A DNA stretch of 64,000 nt, taken from assembly GCA_947377285.1 (NCBI GenBank), contig CANCFT010000017.1, forward strand, positions 1 through 64,000, given 5' to 3'. Both the position numbers and the translations under genes were made by a program. Under the pieces are notes generated by a model. The model did no database searches. It was not told the origin of the DNA and worked only from the letters and a program-made list of their open reading frames with translations. Below, in pieces: positions 23,776-63,950 of this stretch; within the stretch, counting starts at the first letter, position 1, and the number at the start of each line of letters is the position of its first letter. The DNA comes from Bacteriovoracaceae bacterium (lineage in GTDB: Bacteria; Bdellovibrionota; Bacteriovoracia; Bacteriovoracales; Bacteriovoracaceae).

Positions 23776-26654
23776 TTTGCAAATATTTAGTTTCCTTAAT
23801 TTCGGCAATACATTTTATTAGTCATTCATTTGCTGCTGACCCAATAAGTTTTAGTGATCCATTGTTCTCAAAGCAGTGGGCCCTGAAAAATAGCGGTCAA
23901 GGTATTTATAAATCGATTTCTGATCTTGAGCGAATTAAAATTGTAGGAATTCCAGGAAGCGATATCAATTGGGTCGATACTAACTTAATTCCAACTACAA
24001 AAAAAGAATTAATTGTTGCAGTCTTAGATAGTGGGTTAGATACAGGCCATCCTGATTTGGTCGGACGAATTTGGTTTAATGATCAACTTTGTACGAATGC
24101 ACCTAACGCCAAAATTCTTCCTTGTAATGGTTTTAATTTTTTAGATGGAAACAATAATTTAACTGACGATGTCGGTCACGGAACTCACGTGGCAGGAGTT
24201 ATTGCTGCCAATCGAAATTCAATTGGTATTGCTGGAGCAGCTGATCCTCGTATTAAAATAATGCCGCTAAAAGTATTAAACTCTCAGGTTAATGGTTTTG
24301 TTTATAATGGAAAACTTATTACTGATGTTATTGCAGATGCAATGGTTTTTGCTATTAAAAATGGAGCGGAAGTAATCAACTTGAGTTTGGGCTGGCCAAA
24401 ACTGATTGATACTATAAAGGTTCGACAAGCATTCCAAATGGCCGAGGAACGAAATGTAATTGTCATAGCTGCTTCTGGAAATAATAGTAAAGACTTGCCG
24501 ACCTTTCCTTGCGCTTATGAAAATGTTGTTTGTGTTGGAGCTGTTGATAATAGAGGAGAGTTAACTGATTTTTCTAACCATGGTTCGAAAGTTGATATCG
24601 TTGCTCCGGGCGAATATATTATTAGCACTATCCCACGTGCGATTGAATCAAGAGTCCTTCGAATAGCTAATTATGATGTTAAACGAGGATCGAGCCAAGC
24701 AGCACCTTTTGTCACGGCTGCAGTGGCAACTCTAAAATTATTAAATCCAGGATTGAGTAACGATTTAGTCCGGTCCTTATTATTTCAAAGCTCTGAACCT
24801 TTAAAACAATCAACAAATAATCGATTTGTAAAATATGGGGCCCTTAATTTCAAAAATCTTTTAGAGAAAGTAAAGGCTATCTCTGAAGTTGCATTTGTTA
24901 TACCTCAATTAAAAGATATGACGGAAATTAAATTTCACTCAGCTGATAAACGTTTTGCCTTTAAATTACCTTTGAAAAATATTTCAACTCAAAATTATAC
25001 AGGAAAGATTTGTCTTGAGAGTTCTTCTACCGCCATTGAGTTTGATCAAAAATGTTTTGAGGTTAAAAATCTACAAGGATTTGCCTCAACTTTAATTCAG
25101 ATAAATGGGCGCTTGTTAGATTTATCTCTCGACTCTCATATCCAGATATCTGTTCAAATTGATCAAAAAATCTTTAATACTAGCTTAGTTTTTAGCAGGG
25201 ATTTAAATCAAGATACCGAACTCAAGACACACGTGATTCAAGGCGGGAATTTTGATGAAATGGGAATTCTCAATGGAGAACGAAAAATATCAAAAATGAT
25301 CAGAGTCATTGATAAATACCACCGGATCAATCATCCAGAATATTTTTATTTGGAAAAAGCTAAGCAAACAGCAACATCAACAGTCGTCTCATTTTTAACT
25401 GCTGAAAATGGAGACAATAACTATAAAGTCAAGTCGATTACCCTCCCAGTCGTCAATCGAGTCCTATCCATTCATCGTCAAGATATTAATCATGATGGAG
25501 TTGTAGATATTTTTATTTATGCACTTTCGGCTAAAAAAGACCAACTCTTATTTTTTAACTTTGATAATCAACTCAATCCACTTTTTGGAAAATATTCACT
25601 ATGGTCTATGCCCCTTTCAACTTTTGAAGGTTTGCCTATTGATGGTGGAGTTGAAAAATTTGAATGGACACAGATTACTCATCCACAATTGGGAAGTCTC
25701 ATTGTTCCTTCTATTTTTAGAAGTTACTCAATGCCAGAAGCGGATAATTCAAAAAATATTTTGGACCGAATCACTCAAACGACGAATCACCAATTTTATT
25801 TGAATCCTAAACTTCAATCAACTGATGATTCAATGAAAATTGAATTGCGAGTTTTAGACACTGTCAATGCAATGAAAAAATTGAGAAATGATTTTCAATT
25901 ATATTCCAATCAAACCATTCAGCTTTTCAAGCCTTTGCCTCAAACACAAGAGCAATCCCAAAACGGTGAAATACACTCGTTACTTTCTATAGAAACGGAT
26001 GGACAAAAAATTTATAAAGAAATGATTTTAAAATCTGTTGGTTTAAGCTCTCAAGACACCAATGGAATCTTTGGATTAGAAAGTGCATTAGTCTATCCGT
26101 TGATTGATACTGCAACTGGAAATTTATCATCAGATTTTCTTTTTACATCTTTACTCAATCGCTCAGGCGCTGAATTTCTCATTCAAAGTCATTCGACATT
26201 TTCTGATCCTCTCATTCTTACTCAGGAATGGGAAAATCCCATTATTGGAGTCATCGGAGGTTTTAACAAATTAGAAGAGAGAGCTTTTTTGGTTGAAAAT
26301 CGTTCAAGCCTTACTTTGCTCAAATCTAATGGCGAGCGCTCAGATCTTCCAATCTACCGGGATTCTAGTTTTCCTGGGCAAAATTTTTCGGAAACGCTCA
26401 TGCCAATTTTGGTTCAAGGGCTTCCAGGAGTTTACGTCAATTCTACTTTGATTTACGGATCACGTCTTTACAGTATGATAGACTCTAACTCTGGTCTCAT
26501 AAGGCCATTGCAATTGAGTGTTGATATTCCCGATGGATGCGTCCCGTTAAACCCAGAATCCCTCGAAGAAAAAACTCAATTTCATTATTCCTTTTTATGC
26601 GTTGATCAAAACAAGCAAACGTCTCTGAAATTTCTTCCATTGCTTGGGCATTAA
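23772..26654 (+). CDS. Secreted subtilisin-like serine protease (S8) with long C-terminal region
   Basis: The catalytic triad is complete: D86 in AVLDSGLD, H136 in GHGTHVAG and S308 in GSSQAAP, with the oxyanion Asn near 237 (AASGNN). The signal peptide MICKYLVSLISAIHFISHSFA supports ATG 23772, preceded by GGGAG; an in-frame TTG 18 nt earlier is less likely. There is little prodomain between the signal and the catalytic domain (about 75-345). Residues 350-960 are beta-rich and carry a calcium-loop-like DINHDGVVD near 569, as in FG-GAP repeats. It is coupled to the 1010-residue gene upstream. It is probably exported for digestion of prey or environmental protein. Confidence 0.9.
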   Translation: MICKYLVSLISAIHFISHSFAADPISFSDPLFSKQWALKNSGQGIYKSISDLERIKIVGIPGSDINWVDTNLIPTTKKELIVAVLDSGLDTGHPDLVGRIWFNDQLCTNAPNAKILPCNGFNFLDGNNNLTDDVGHGTHVAGVIAANRNSIGIAGAADPRIKIMPLKVLNSQVNGFVYNGKLITDVIADAMVFAIKNGAEVINLSLGWPKLIDTIKVRQAFQMAEERNVIVIAASGNNSKDLPTFPCAYENVVCVGAVDNRGELTDFSNHGSKVDIVAPGEYIISTIPRAIESRVLRIANYDVKRGSSQAAPFVTAAVATLKLLNPGLSNDLVRSLLFQSSEPLKQSTNNRFVKYGALNFKNLLEKVKAISEVAFVIPQLKDMTEIKFHSADKRFAFKLPLKNISTQNYTGKICLESSSTAIEFDQKCFEVKNLQGFASTLIQINGRLLDLSLDSHIQISVQIDQKIFNTSLVFSRDLNQDTELKTHVIQGGNFDEMGILNGERKISKMIRVIDKYHRINHPEYFYLEKAKQTATSTVVSFLTAENGDNNYKVKSITLPVVNRVLSIHRQDINHDGVVDIFIYALSAKKDQLLFFNFDNQLNPLFGKYSLWSMPLSTFEGLPIDGGVEKFEWTQITHPQLGSLIVPSIFRSYSMPEADNSKNILDRITQTTNHQFYLNPKLQSTDDSMKIELRVLDTVNAMKKLRNDFQLYSNQTIQLFKPLPQTQEQSQNGEIHSLLSIETDGQKIYKEMILKSVGLSSQDTNGIFGLESALVYPLIDTATGNLSSDFLFTSLLNRSGAEFLIQSHSTFSDPLILTQEWENPIIGVIGGFNKLEERAFLVENRSSLTLLKSNGERSDLPIYRDSSFPGQNFSETLMPILVQGLPGVYVNSTLIYGSRLYSMIDSNSGLIRPLQLSVDIPDGCVPLNPESLEEKTQFHYSFLCVDQNKQTSLKFLPLLGH

Positions 26655-26656
26655 TG

Positions 26657-26740
26657 ATATCTTCCCCGGATGAAAACTTGAATTACTCGTTCTGATCCAT
26701 TGGGGGTCAGGACCTAATTTTTATTAGTCCAGGGGGATAT
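26657..26740 (+). promoter_or_regulatory. Candidate autoregulatory leader of the S6-S18 gene
   Basis: The 87-nt gap before the ATG can form three helices. ATATC-TT-CCCC (26657-26667) pairs with GGGGGATAT (26732-26740), which contains the Shine-Dalgarno. Inside are CTGATCC/GGTCAG (26692-26710) and GGACCTAAT/ATTAGTCC (26710-26730), each with one bulged base. Leaders bound by the S6:S18 pair are known in other bacteria; a match to that specific motif is inferred, not shown. Confidence 0.45.
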
Positions 26741-26741
26741 T

Positions 26742-27383
26742 ATGATTTATGAGTTGTCCGTAGTGACAAAGCCAGAGCTCGGAGCAGAAGCTCATGCACA
26801 GATCGCAGAGATCGTTAAAGACACATTAAAAGGATTCGAAGGAGAACTTTTAATTGCTGACGATTGGGGAAAACTTCACTTAGCACAACCGTATTCAAAC
26901 GGTTCTAAACACGGTCACTTCCATTACTTTATGTTCAAGTCAAACACTCAAGCTAACACTGAGTTGACAAGAAGATTTGGGATCAATGAAGGTGTTATGC
27001 GTTCAATGGTTTTCGTTATTGGCGTAGATGCTGAAAAAGAAGAACTTGCGAAAAATTTCAAATCACCATTTTCAAAAACTAGAAACGGATCTGTTCTTGA
27101 TAACAAGAGAGATGACGATGAAGAAGGTTTCGAAGATATGGAAGATGATAGAAGAAAATTTGCTAAGAGAAAATCTTGCTGGTTTACAGCTAAGAAAATC
27201 AAAGCAGATTGGAAAGATCCTCAAACTTGGAACTGGTTAGTAAGTGAATTTGGAAAAATTTCACCAGCTAGAGTTTCTGGGATTTCAATGAAACACCAAA
27301 GATTTTCTAACTCAGCTATTAAGCATGCTAGAAATCTAGGGATTTCAAGTTACCTATCTAACCAAACTGCTGGTAGAGCGTAA
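26742..27383 (+). CDS. Fused ribosomal proteins bS6 and bS18
   Basis: Residues 1-105 are bS6 (MIYELSVVTKPELGAEAHAQ, ending at RSMVFVIGVDAE). Residues about 138-213 are a complete bS18 (RKSCWFTAKKIKADWKDPQT, then WLVSEFGKISPARVSGIS and the end AIKHARNLGISSYL). They are joined in one frame by an acidic linker (RDDDEEGFEDMEDDR) with no stop between them. The two proteins are neighbours on the 30S platform, so a fusion is physically plausible. An internal ATG at 27138 (Met133), 10 nt after AAGG, could also yield separate S18. AGGGGG lies 5 nt before ATG 26742. Gene order (S6, S18, DUF2232, L9, dnaB) is the usual one. Confidence 0.92.
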   Translation: MIYELSVVTKPELGAEAHAQIAEIVKDTLKGFEGELLIADDWGKLHLAQPYSNGSKHGHFHYFMFKSNTQANTELTRRFGINEGVMRSMVFVIGVDAEKEELAKNFKSPFSKTRNGSVLDNKRDDDEEGFEDMEDDRRKFAKRKSCWFTAKKIKADWKDPQTWNWLVSEFGKISPARVSGISMKHQRFSNSAIKHARNLGISSYLSNQTAGRA

Positions 27384-27389
27384 TAAGAA

Positions 27390-28403
27390 ATGACAACTCC
27401 AGAAGTTCAACATAGCAAAATTTTTGATCAGCGAGCATCGTTCGGGAAACTAGTGTTTCTTGCTGTCATTTCAATTGCTCTTTGCTCTTTTGGGCCCCTT
27501 TCAGTATTTGCACCAGTTCCATTGATCTTGGCGTTTCTTCTATATGGACGATTAACCACATTGTTCATCGGCGGAGTTTGCACCAGTGCTCTTTGGTTTA
27601 TTTCAGTTAAATTTGCCATCCCAATGATGATCGCAGGAATGTACTTAACGGCATTTTTGTATGCCATCTTGATCGCAGAAATTATTCTTAGAAATATTAA
27701 TCCAGTAAAAGGATTGATTTACGCTGGAATGGTTTTAGTGACTCTCGTTGGTGGATCGTTGGTTGCTTATAATCAATTAAGCAAAGTATCAGTGAAAACA
27801 GAACTTAAAACTTCTGTAACTAAACTGATGCAAATGGTGAAGGAACAAAATAAGGATAATGCTGTTCTCAATTCAAACGGAGAAGAAGCTCGCGCCTTTC
27901 AAGATTTTATTTCTAAGCCAGAAGAGCTTGCGAATGAAATTTTTGGTGTCTTGCCTGCAGTTATTTTTGTGTTCGCTTTCTTTGGCCTATGGATTTGTCT
28001 TTATATGACACTTCGAAATGTCAGCGTTTGGCGATTTAAACACCCTTATCCGTTTAGTTTAAAAGACCTGATTAATTTCAGGGCTCCTGAATTTTTCGTA
28101 TGGCCATTGATATTATCTTTGGTGTGCGTTGTAGGAGCTGAATACGGTCTTCCTAAAGTAGCTGTTATAATTGGTACAAATCTTCTTTACTGCTTGGGAG
28201 TGTTTTACTTATTTCAAGGGTTCGGCGTTTATAATGCTTTTTTAAAGTATTTAAAAATTGGCGGATTTTTGAAAACAATGTTTGTTGTTTTCACTTTGGT
28301 GATGGCGTACAAATTTTTGGCCCTACTCGGAATGTTTGATCTATGGTTTGATTTTAGAAAATTTTTAACGAACAAAAAAAAGGACGAAGGAGATATATTA
28401 TGA
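27390..28403 (+). CDS. DUF2232 integral membrane protein
   Basis: This is a polytopic inner-membrane protein of 337 residues with about eight hydrophobic segments, for example FLAVISIALCSFGPLSVFAP, ALWFISVKFAIPMMIAGMYL, AVIFVFAFFGLWICLYMTLR and TMFVVFTLVMAYKFLALLGM. Position between the S18 and L9 genes and the fold are typical of DUF2232 proteins, whose function is not established. A soluble loop (about 130-175) separates two membrane halves. It starts 6 nt after the S6-S18 stop without a clear binding site and overlaps rplI by 4 nt, so it depends on coupling. Confidence 0.75.
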   Translation: MTTPEVQHSKIFDQRASFGKLVFLAVISIALCSFGPLSVFAPVPLILAFLLYGRLTTLFIGGVCTSALWFISVKFAIPMMIAGMYLTAFLYAILIAEIILRNINPVKGLIYAGMVLVTLVGGSLVAYNQLSKVSVKTELKTSVTKLMQMVKEQNKDNAVLNSNGEEARAFQDFISKPEELANEIFGVLPAVIFVFAFFGLWICLYMTLRNVSVWRFKHPYPFSLKDLINFRAPEFFVWPLILSLVCVVGAEYGLPKVAVIIGTNLLYCLGVFYLFQGFGVYNAFLKYLKIGGFLKTMFVVFTLVMAYKFLALLGMFDLWFDFRKFLTNKKKDEGDIL

Positions 28404-29014
28404 AAGTTATTTTAACTGAAAAAGTTCCAGCTCTTGGAAATATCGGTGAAATCGTTAACGTATCAGCAGGTCATGCTAGAAATTATCTAGTACCAAATGG
28501 CTTTGCAATGGTTGCTGATGATTCAAACAAAAACTTATTGGCAGCTCAACAAAAAAGTCTTGCGAAAAAAATCCAAGGCCAAAAAGATGCAGCTAATGAA
28601 TTAAAGAAAAAAATCGAAGGGATGACTATCGAACTTATTAAAAAAGTTGGAGCGTCAGGAAAACTTTTCGGAACTGTTACTAACGCTGAACTTTCTAAAG
28701 AATTAGAAGTGCGCGGAGTAGAAGTAGAAAGAAGATTAATCCACTTAGAAGCTCCTATTAAAGGACTTGGACTTTTCAATGCAAAAGCAAAGATTTTCCA
28801 AGACGTAGAAGCAACTTTCAAAATTAAAATTTCTATTGATCCTAAACAAGCTGAAGAGCTTAAAAAGAATCAAGAAGAAGCTCTTAAAAATGCTGAAGCT
28901 CGTAAAAAAGCTGCTGCAGAAGCTAAAGCTAATGGAACAACTGAAACTGCAGTTGTTGAATTAACTGAAGAGCAAAGATTGAAAGCTGAAGTTGATAAAC
29001 TTTTAAGATCTTAA
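28400..29014 (+). CDS. rplI: Ribosomal protein bL9 with C-terminal extension
   Basis: bL9 binds 23S rRNA near L1. The N-domain MKVILTEKVPALGNIGEIVNV with VSAGHARNYLVPNGFA is canonical, followed by the long connecting helix and a C-domain (LFGTVTNAELSKEL, then HLEAPIKGLG). At 204 residues it is about 50 longer than usual. The extra tail (about 152-204) is Ala/Glu/Lys-rich and helical. The start lies in the ATGA overlap with the DUF2232 gene and has GGAG upstream. A terminator follows. Confidence 0.96.
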   Translation: MKVILTEKVPALGNIGEIVNVSAGHARNYLVPNGFAMVADDSNKNLLAAQQKSLAKKIQGQKDAANELKKKIEGMTIELIKKVGASGKLFGTVTNAELSKELEVRGVEVERRLIHLEAPIKGLGLFNAKAKIFQDVEATFKIKISIDPKQAEELKKNQEEALKNAEARKKAAAEAKANGTTETAVVELTEEQRLKAEVDKLLRS

Positions 29015-29050: not shown

Positions 29051-29085
29051 AAGAGGGCCTCTATCAAGAGGTCCTCTTTGTTTGT
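29051..29085 (+). terminator. Intrinsic terminator between rplI and dnaB
   Basis: AAGAGGGCCTC pairs with GAGGTCCTCTT (11 bp, one G-T pair), followed by TGTTTGT. The weak T-tract may allow read-through into dnaB. Confidence 0.7.
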
Positions 29086-29095
29086 AGGTAAAATT

Positions 29096-30448
29096 ATGGC
29101 GAGCAATAATAACAATCAAGTCAATGAACTTCCTCACGACCTATTAGCTGAAAAAGCGATGGTAGGATGCTTGATTATCGATGGCTCGGTCTTTGATGAA
29201 ATCTCAAATTTAAAAATTGCCCAAGAACATTTTTATGATCCTCGCTACGGCATGATTTATGATGTCATCGCCGATCTTTCTCTAGCTAACAAAGCGATCG
29301 ATTACGTAACTGTCTGCTCGAAACTCCAAGAAAAAGGAAAACTCGAAGAAATTGGCGGACAATCTTTTGTCCTAAGTTTAGTTGAAGACCAAGCGTCTTC
29401 TGCTAACGTTTATGATTATGCCAAAATTGTAAAAGATAAATCATCTATGAGAGAAATTATCCGTACGGCCATGAGAGTGGTTCAGATGGGAATGTCTTTC
29501 GCTGGAGATGCGGATGATTTTATCCAAGAAGTAGAATCAAGTTTTTTTAAACTTACCAATGATGCCAAGACTGGTTCAATGGTGAAGTTAAATGCAACTT
29601 TAAAACAAAACTTAAAAGAATTAGAAGATACTTCACGTCTTATGGGTGAGATTGCCGGGCTTTCTACGGGCTACCCTCGTTTAGATGAATTATTATTGGG
29701 GATGCAGCCTGGTCAATTAATAGTACTTGCTGCTCGTCCTGCAATGGGAAAAACGTCTTTGGCCCTAAACGTAGCAGTGAGTGCTTGTATTCAATCTGGA
29801 CTTCCAGTGGTTATTTTTTCATTAGAGATGTTAGCGACGGAATTATCGATGAGACTTCTTACAGGGCGAGCGAAAGTTGATTCAAAACGAGTTCGGAAAA
29901 AAGCATTCTTAGATACCGATCTTCGAAGTATTGCTAAAGCGACTCAAGAGCTTTCATCTCTGCCGATTTATATTAATGATTCTGGGAATACGACAATTCT
30001 CGATATTCAAAGTCAGAGTCGAAAAATTAAAGCAGATCAAGGGTTGGGATTAATTGTCATCGACTACTTGCAGTTGATGGGATCGACCAGTAAAAATATT
30101 CAACGTGAGCAACAGATTGCTGAGATCTCGCGTGGACTTAAGACTATGGCCAAAGAGCTTGGTTGCCCAGTTATTGCACTTTCACAGCTAAACCGAGGTG
30201 TAGAGTCTCGTCCAAACAAGCGTCCGTCGACAGCGGATCTTCGCGAGTCTGGAGCGATTGAGCAGGATGCTGATATTGTCATGTTTGTTTACCGTGATGA
30301 AGTATACTATCCAGATACTAAGGAGCCAGGGATTGCCGAAATTATAGTAGGTAAAAACCGTGCTGGAGAAATTGGAACAGCAAAGCTTGCGTGGGTTGGA
30401 GCTTACACTAGTTTTGAAAACCTAGCAGCTCATCGTGACGGACAATAA
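29096..30448 (+). CDS. dnaB: Replicative DNA helicase DnaB
   Basis: This is the hexameric helicase that unwinds DNA at the fork. The N-terminal domain (LPHDLLAEKAMVGCLIIDGS) binds primase. The RecA-like C-domain has Walker A ARPAMGKTSLALNV, Walker B VIDYLQLM and DLRESGAIEQDADIVMFVYR with the arginine-finger region. I chose ATG 29096 (TAGGT upstream); a TTG at 29078 lies in the terminator stem. The product has 450 residues, normal for the family, with no intein. The 3' end overlaps pabB by 14 nt. Confidence 0.97.
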   Translation: MASNNNNQVNELPHDLLAEKAMVGCLIIDGSVFDEISNLKIAQEHFYDPRYGMIYDVIADLSLANKAIDYVTVCSKLQEKGKLEEIGGQSFVLSLVEDQASSANVYDYAKIVKDKSSMREIIRTAMRVVQMGMSFAGDADDFIQEVESSFFKLTNDAKTGSMVKLNATLKQNLKELEDTSRLMGEIAGLSTGYPRLDELLLGMQPGQLIVLAARPAMGKTSLALNVAVSACIQSGLPVVIFSLEMLATELSMRLLTGRAKVDSKRVRKKAFLDTDLRSIAKATQELSSLPIYINDSGNTTILDIQSQSRKIKADQGLGLIVIDYLQLMGSTSKNIQREQQIAEISRGLKTMAKELGCPVIALSQLNRGVESRPNKRPSTADLRESGAIEQDADIVMFVYRDEVYYPDTKEPGIAEIIVGKNRAGEIGTAKLAWVGAYTSFENLAAHRDGQ

Positions 30449-62999: not shown

Positions 63000-63950
63000 A
63001 TGAAACATGTTTTTTTTATCGATCCCATTAACAAATTAAGCCCTAAAAAAGACAGCTCTTTGATGCTTGCTTCAACGATGAAGCAGCTTGGAATGGAAGT
63101 TTATTTATTATTTGAAGTTGATTTTTATTTAAATAATAAAAAAATTCCTGAATTTCAACTTTATGATTTTCAAGCTGAATTTTATGATGATGGATGTTAT
63201 CTAAAATCTTTTACGTTAGGAACTTCAATCCCAAAGAAATTGACTCCAGAAGATATTCTACATATGAGAATAGATCCGCCATTTGATACGCGCTATTTAC
63301 GTTATTTATGGATGCTGCGGTTTTATCAATCACAAGGAATTCGAGTCGTGAATTCACCAGATGGTATTTTAAAGTTTAATGAAAAACTTCATGCTTATGC
63401 CCAACCCTCATCTCTTGCTAGTTTTGTTGGAAGTAGTGTGGCCGAATTTATGGTATTCGCTGATTCTATGAAAAAAGAAAATCATCACGAATTAATTCTT
63501 AAGCCATTAGATCTTTTTCAAGGGATAGGGGTTGAAAAAATTTCATTAGACAGAACAGATTTAAAAGAAAAATTTGAATTGAAAGTTATTGAAAATAATG
63601 GACCTGTCGTAGCACAACCTTTTTGCAAGGAAGTTGTAAGCGGAGAAATTCGTTCTCTATATTTCAAAGGAATTGAACTTGGATCTATTTTAAAAATTCC
63701 GAAAAAAGGTGAGTTTTTGGCCAATATTGCTCAAGGTGCAGACTTTCACGCAATAGAGCTCGGCCCTAATGTGAAAAATGAATGCAATAGAATTTGCAAA
63801 GAGTTGCTTTTGGATGGTGTCGATTGGGTTGCTTTTGATATAATGGGTGAGCACGTCTCTGAAATAAATATTACTTGCCCGGGACTTTTAGTAGAAGTTA
63901 GTTTCGCACATAAAAAAAATTTAGCACGTGAACTTATTTCTATGATTTAA
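63000..63950 (+). CDS. gshB: Glutathione synthetase-like ATP-grasp ligase
   Basis: It resembles prokaryotic GshB, which joins gamma-glutamylcysteine and glycine. The N-domain has HMRIDPPFDTRYL (cf. RxDPPFD) and RVVNSPDGILKFNEKL. The ATP-grasp part has ELILKPLDLFQGIGV, PVVAQPFCKEVVSGEIRSLY and the metal-binding end FDIMGEHVSEINITCPGLLV. Some glycine-rich-loop residues differ from E. coli GshB, so a related dipeptide-ligase role is possible. No gshA is visible. The window ends 50 nt after its stop. Confidence 0.8.
   Translation: MKHVFFIDPINKLSPKKDSSLMLASTMKQLGMEVYLLFEVDFYLNNKKIPEFQLYDFQAEFYDDGCYLKSFTLGTSIPKKLTPEDILHMRIDPPFDTRYLRYLWMLRFYQSQGIRVVNSPDGILKFNEKLHAYAQPSSLASFVGSSVAEFMVFADSMKKENHHELILKPLDLFQGIGVEKISLDRTDLKEKFELKVIENNGPVVAQPFCKEVVSGEIRSLYFKGIELGSILKIPKKGEFLANIAQGADFHAIELGPNVKNECNRICKELLLDGVDWVAFDIMGEHVSEINITCPGLLVEVSFAHKKNLARELISMI

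Follow-up and report, generated by a model that had tools for sequence, protein, structure and literature searches.

A fused rpsF-rpsR gene encodes ribosomal proteins bS6 and bS18 in a single reading frame in most genomes of the class Bacteriovoracia

Nearly all bacteria have the ribosomal proteins bS6 and bS18. We have analysed a 64,000-nt stretch of DNA from a Bacteriovoracaceae bacterium (GCA_947377285.1, contig CANCFT010000017.1; hereafter the window) in which the two are joined in one uninterrupted frame, with no further copy of either gene found in the assembly. Judged from the genomes compared here, most members of the class Bacteriovoracia, which includes known predators, carry this fusion. 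To our knowledge, a natural fusion between two ribosomal proteins that marks a bacterial class is not otherwise known. Our reading, to which we assign a probability of roughly 80%, is that the product would be a permanently covalent bS6-bS18 that docks as the ordinary heterodimer does and probably regulates its own synthesis.

Results

bS6 and bS18 are joined in one frame in the window

The first-pass annotation of the window had described one 213-codon frame carrying bS6, an acidic linker and bS18 without a stop, lying in place within normal operon surroundings. Translation and Pfam agree with this description, and the downstream order of fusion, DUF2232 gene, rplI and dnaB is real; the end of a subtilase gene, at 26654, lies upstream. 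The features are as follows.

26742-27383, plus strand: fused rpsF-rpsR gene, 213 codons and stop (translation, Pfam, NCBIfam)
26742-27053, plus strand: bS6 part, residues 1-104 (Pfam; model pLDDT block means 92-96 at residues 1-110)
27054-27149, plus strand: linker, residues 105-136 (32 aa), acidic, with a K-x-P-like segment at its start
27138-27140, plus strand: in-frame ATG, linker codon 133, a possible internal start that is not conserved in the class
27150-27380, plus strand: bS18 part, residues 137-213 (Pfam, NCBIfam, alignment of fusions)
27390-28403, plus strand: gene for a DUF2232 membrane protein, operon neighbour
28400-29014, plus strand: rplI, ribosomal protein bL9, operon neighbour
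29078-30448, plus strand: dnaB, replicative helicase, operon neighbour

Residues 3-91 matched PF01250 (Ribosomal_S6; E 1.5e-16, 60.8 bits against a cut-off of 27) over positions 2-89 of the 90 in the profile, and residues 151-201 matched PF01084 (Ribosomal_S18; E 1.4e-12, 47.9 bits against a cut-off of 21). The more stringent NCBIfam equivalog for S18, TIGR00165, was passed (49.3 versus 38.75 bits) and that for S6, TIGR00166, was narrowly missed (40.5 versus 42.9 bits); on these profile scores, the S6 part is a divergent member of bS6. A search of the genome for a second rpsR had been proposed together with the annotation. When the whole assembly (3.45 Mb, 68 contigs, 92.75% complete) was searched with the profiles, no second match to S6 or S18 was found, which rules out a second copy of rpsR or rpsF within the assembly.

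The fusion recurs throughout the class

Another check proposed at the outset, a survey of relatives for the same fusion and linker, was carried out with profiles that started from the S6 half and the S18 half of the window's fused protein. An S18 match was present in 118 of 129 genomes of the class, one in each, and the 11 genomes lacking a match are all less than 90% complete. The DNA around all 118 S18 loci was then inspected for S6. Results showed that S6 and S18 share one open frame in 110 of the 118 genomes with detectable S18, the window's genome being counted once, so that the survey extends the finding beyond what a single window could show. The remaining eight comprise one gene that is fused up to the point where its contig stops (G110, in which the contig end truncates the gene and an apparent S6 tail and linker are in frame with S18), one that says nothing on fusion because the contig is cut inside S18 (G120), five two-gene members and one gene interrupted by a stop. 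These last six indicate that members of the class can exist without the fusion.

A frameshift or a missing stop in the assembly could in principle create such a frame, and the window does come from a draft of 68 contigs that is 93% complete. The same layout in 110 of 118 genomes, however, makes a local sequencing or assembly error not credible. One of these genomes, G042, is a 2-contig assembly with a contig of 3.4 Mb. Records without a metagenome-assembled genome (MAG) label show it too: in Bacteriovorax sp. BSW11_IV and DB6_IX one frame extends over query residues 1-208 and 1-210, respectively. These two were found among the best 80 of 108 loci in a search for close matches, which were mostly MAGs with titles naming Bacteriovorax, Halobacteriovorax, Bacteriovoracaceae, Bacteriovoracia or less specific taxa. 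We regard the chance of an artefact as negligible, and rejected an assembly error as the source of the one-frame layout.

Across the phylum, S18 was detected in 332 of 368 genomes, including 214 of the 239 outside the class. Among the matches listed, the out-of-class S18 frames measured 74-155 aa, which is too short for a fusion. At the 25 out-of-class loci that were read, S6 and S18 never shared one frame (0/25); a separate S6 lay nearby in 8, and the S6 profile gave no match within ~1.5 kb at the other 17.

Two-gene members have zinc ligands that the fused proteins lack

S6 and S18 are encoded by two adjacent genes in G019, G058, G059, G060 and G064 (loci L006, L017, L019, L035 and L099). 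From its likely start codon, the S18 of these members carries an N-terminal extension of 35-55 aa with a net charge of -4 to -10. In G071 (L037, minus strand), S6 and S18 lie in the same frame with a single TAA between them, and the S18 part has no ATG, GTG or TTG ahead of its core; a point error, a recent split and readthrough are candidate readings of this TAA. As a separate observation, G058, G059 and G060, a lineage with separate rpsF and rpsR, have two secA genes each.

In S18 proteins, the cysteines of a CxxC motif and of a later C-x-x-H bind zinc. Both the zinc-type CxxC motif and the later C-x-x-H cysteine are missing from all 110 fused S18 parts (regular expressions read 109 and 105 of the 110 and the remaining six were read by eye); in the window, the zinc-type cysteines of bS18 are absent except the first. 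The S18 of G071 is also devoid of zinc-type cysteines. All five two-gene members have CWFC together with the later C-x-x-H, as do 6 of the 25 out-of-class S18 proteins (L132-L135, L141 and L142); among the rest, cysteine is absent there from L120-L131, and L136-L140, L143 and L144 show at most a partial set. Retention of the zinc ligands gives the two-gene members an ancestral appearance and makes the fused clade appear derived.

Marker-gene trees speak neither for nor against the two-gene members being ancestral. rpoB was found in 53 of 61 genomes searched, being absent from the window's genome and from G019, and a tree of 50 genomes was built from it. Trees of rpoB, rpoC and secA combined were then inferred from 51 rows, with G287 omitted as a long branch, and from the 36 of these 51 with enough data. 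The p-values of the approximately unbiased (AU) test given here are rough, because the 51-row trees were fast searches and in the first 51-row test two constrained trees outscored the free one. Placing the fused rows in one clade without G071 gave p = 0.010 and 0.11 with 51 rows and 0.009 and 0.004 with 36, and one clade of the fused rows plus G071 gave 0.49 and 0.11 with 51 rows and 0.089 and 0.092 with 36. For a class split between fused rows plus G071 and the other five unfused members, the values were 0.062 (51 rows) and 0.093 and 0.074 (36 rows). A single clade of all six unfused members had p = 0.23 in the first 51-row test and was rejected in the second, and one of the five without G071 had p = 0.71 and 0.17 (51 rows). 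In the best free 36-row tree, G064, which is unfused, grouped within the fused rows (support 67), and G109, which is fused, stood beside the outgroup (support 73); taken literally, these placements would require several fusions or fissions.

The linker is selected as protein in the window's genus, and no internal start is conserved in the class

Measured between the profile matches, the linker of the 110 fused genes is 18-35 aa long (median 26), and after its first proline the net charge is negative in every one. A K-x-P-like motif, scored by regular expression, follows the S6 domain in 107 of the 110, and Pro109 is invariant in an alignment of 42 fusions (the window and 41 of the other 109). 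Within the window's genus, raw pN/pS pooled across all pairs of 11 genomes was 0.19 for the linker, compared with 0.24 for the S6 part and 0.11 for the S18 part, which indicates that in this genus the linker is translated and under selection as protein.

The first-pass annotation had also suggested that S18 might be made separately from an ATG inside the linker, and the codon at 27138, with AAGG 10 nt before it, is present as described. Full-length S6-S18 would then be accompanied by free S18. Within the window's genus the sequence is compatible with such a dual output, given that all 11 genomes retain the ATG and 7 of the 11 the AAGG, and across the class an in-linker start is preceded by a Shine-Dalgarno-like 4-mer in 20 of the 110 fused genes. 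As a general route, however, the suggestion fails: between the end of the S6 profile and the S18 cysteine, 45 of the 110 contain none of ATG, GTG and TTG, and 32 of the 110 offer no CTG, ATT, ATC or ATA either. A conserved internal S18 start is thereby excluded class-wide, single genera excepted, and internal initiation is ruled out as the general mechanism. Moreover, the ATG of the window's genus encodes the Met of EDMEDD, a conserved residue within a conserved acidic peptide, which would account for its conservation. Overall, we consider dual output quite unlikely.

Another route to separate proteins would be a precursor, that is, a single chain cut in the linker by a protease to yield ordinary bS6 and bS18, in the manner of the eukaryotic ubiquitin-ribosomal protein precursors. 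The linker runs into the least confident stretch of the structural model (pLDDT 53-66 at residues 121-150) and varies in length between 18 and 35 aa, so it is probably exposed, and trypsin-like sites might lie in the adjoining arm of S18, which is rich in Lys and Arg. Against cleavage, inspection of the 110 linkers by eye revealed no shared cleavage-like motif, the best-kept element (the K-x-P-like motif) adjoins the S6 domain, and the purpose of a cleavage step is not apparent. E. coli RimK modifies the free C-terminus of S6, and a RimK-family ligase is encoded in the genome (278 bits, on another contig than the window); its presence counts against an uncut fused chain, in which the C-terminus of S6 is not free. 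Other substrates of the family exist, however, and the searches for RimK and RimI were not diagnostic. Separately, a RimK-family match below the cut-off (48.8 bits) lies within the window at 63288-63944. We judge the precursor improbable, and favour a chain that would stay uncut on the ribosome.

The predicted structure and the conserved residues are compatible with an S6:S18 pair

An AlphaFold2 model built from the 42 fused sequences had a mean pLDDT of 85.4 and a pTM of 0.81, the latter suggesting a definite placement of the S18 part against S6. Block means of pLDDT were 87-96 through residue 120 and, after the drop at the end of the linker, 65-91 in the S18 part, with the value of 65 at residues 171-180. 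Among the best 50 of 1368 Foldseek matches in the PDB, TM-scores normalised by target against solved S6 chains ranged from 0.61 to 0.92 and the alignments covered 89-111 columns, about the length of S6 alone. In a phmmer search of PDB sequences, each of the best 60 of 92 rows likewise covered one stretch only, either S6 or S18.

W157, K158, K194 and R197 are invariant in the 42 aligned fusions. Mapped by eye, W157/K158 are taken to correspond to E. coli S18 Y23/K24, at the interface with S6, and K194/R197 to K60/R63, which contact RNA, as these residues are described in the available part of PMC4647458.

bS6, bS18 and bS21 surround the anti-Shine-Dalgarno tail in Bacteroidia, according to the accessible text of PMC9976891. 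bS21 was present in all 13 genomes examined here, and the S6-S18 fusion is thus not coupled to loss of bS21.

A candidate regulatory leader precedes the fused gene

The available part of PMC4647458 describes an RNA element ahead of rpsF in E. coli, to which the S6:S18 heterodimer binds and through which translation is repressed, and reports that overexpression of S6 or S18 alone did not repress rpsF. A similar arrangement precedes the fused gene.

26685-26741, plus strand: leader with ACUCG, a hairpin and GUCCAGGGGG (Shine-Dalgarno), resembling the S6:S18-binding rpsF leader

Leaders of this kind are widespread in the class. In an alignment of 49 of them, the typical one consists of ACUCGCUC, a hairpin closed by GGGC and a Shine-Dalgarno of the CCAGGAGG type. 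Of the 110 fused genes, 107 have enough upstream DNA to be scored, and all 107 carry a Shine-Dalgarno-like 4- or 5-mer. A CUCG-anchored hairpin with a score of at least 7, under an anchor and stem rule of our own choosing, occurred in 38 of these 107 leaders and in 28 of 2140 shuffles. By eye, the element was also recognisable in G064, in G071 and at the out-of-class loci L132-L135 and L142, where rpsF is unfused; it was not recognisable in G019, G058, G059 or G060.

RNAalifold and a covariance model applied to the MAFFT alignment of the 49 leaders returned no consensus pairs, as far as is visible because the hairpins were misaligned. Rfam gave three unrelated chance-level matches only at 26500-28500 of the window with E values up to 10, and no match at gathering thresholds in 20 loci, although Rfam may hold no rpsF_leader family. 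From the leader sequences we infer that the fused protein probably keeps the autoregulation by its leader.

Discussion

We propose that the gene is expressed as one chain of 213 residues (~24 kDa), so that all S6 and all S18 would come from a covalent bS6-bS18. Its two parts would fold and dock like the ordinary S6:S18 heterodimer, the flexible acidic linker spanning the distance from the C-terminus of S6 to the N-terminal arm of S18, and the joined protein would bind the 30S platform as a single unit. Such a fusion would hold two proteins that work together in any case to a 1:1 ratio of synthesis. Its product would probably act on the leader immediately ahead of the start codon and so repress the mRNA that encodes it.

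It also seems likely to us that most of the class has a 30S subunit with a permanently covalent bS6-bS18, which would have been fixed early alongside the loss of the zinc cysteines and would leave the ribosome with one protein fewer and an intramolecular heterodimer. This would represent a stable change in the parts list of the ribosome, in which two normally separate core proteins are encoded joined. If true, the class offers a natural experiment in 30S assembly, in which a secondary-binding heterodimer has become intramolecular and its synthesis is forced to 1:1, and the few unfused lineages together with the one stop-interrupted case provide a comparison within the class. The fusion can serve to recognise most of the class at the molecular level, and may affect the extraction of single-copy marker genes for phylogenies and completeness estimates. 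A search of titles and the beginnings of abstracts in the open-licence literature found no report of a natural S6-S18 fusion.

Ribosomal proteins within fused chains have a known precedent in the ubiquitin-eS31 and ubiquitin-eL40 precursors, as presented in the available part of PMC6721733. In those precursors the ribosomal protein is joined to ubiquitin and cut free, whereas in the fusion it is joined to another ribosomal protein, and we saw no sign of cleavage. The leader resembles the rpsF_leader of PMC4647458, in what that source makes available, in that a hairpin and a Shine-Dalgarno lie directly before the S6 start; unlike it, the leader described here has neither an Rfam match nor a consensus fold and is a candidate by sequence alone. 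The closest comparison is the rpsF-priB-rpsR-rplI operon of E. coli K-12, in which rpsF and rpsR are separate and priB lies between them. As in E. coli, both families are complete, rplI belongs to the same operon and a leader-like element stands before the S6 start; S6 and S18 of E. coli act as a heterodimer (PMC4647458, in part), which is the state presumed for the fused protein. The two systems differ in that here no stop, start or intervening gene separates the proteins, which form one polypeptide, and the fused chain has neither the free C-terminus of S6 nor the free N-terminus of S18.
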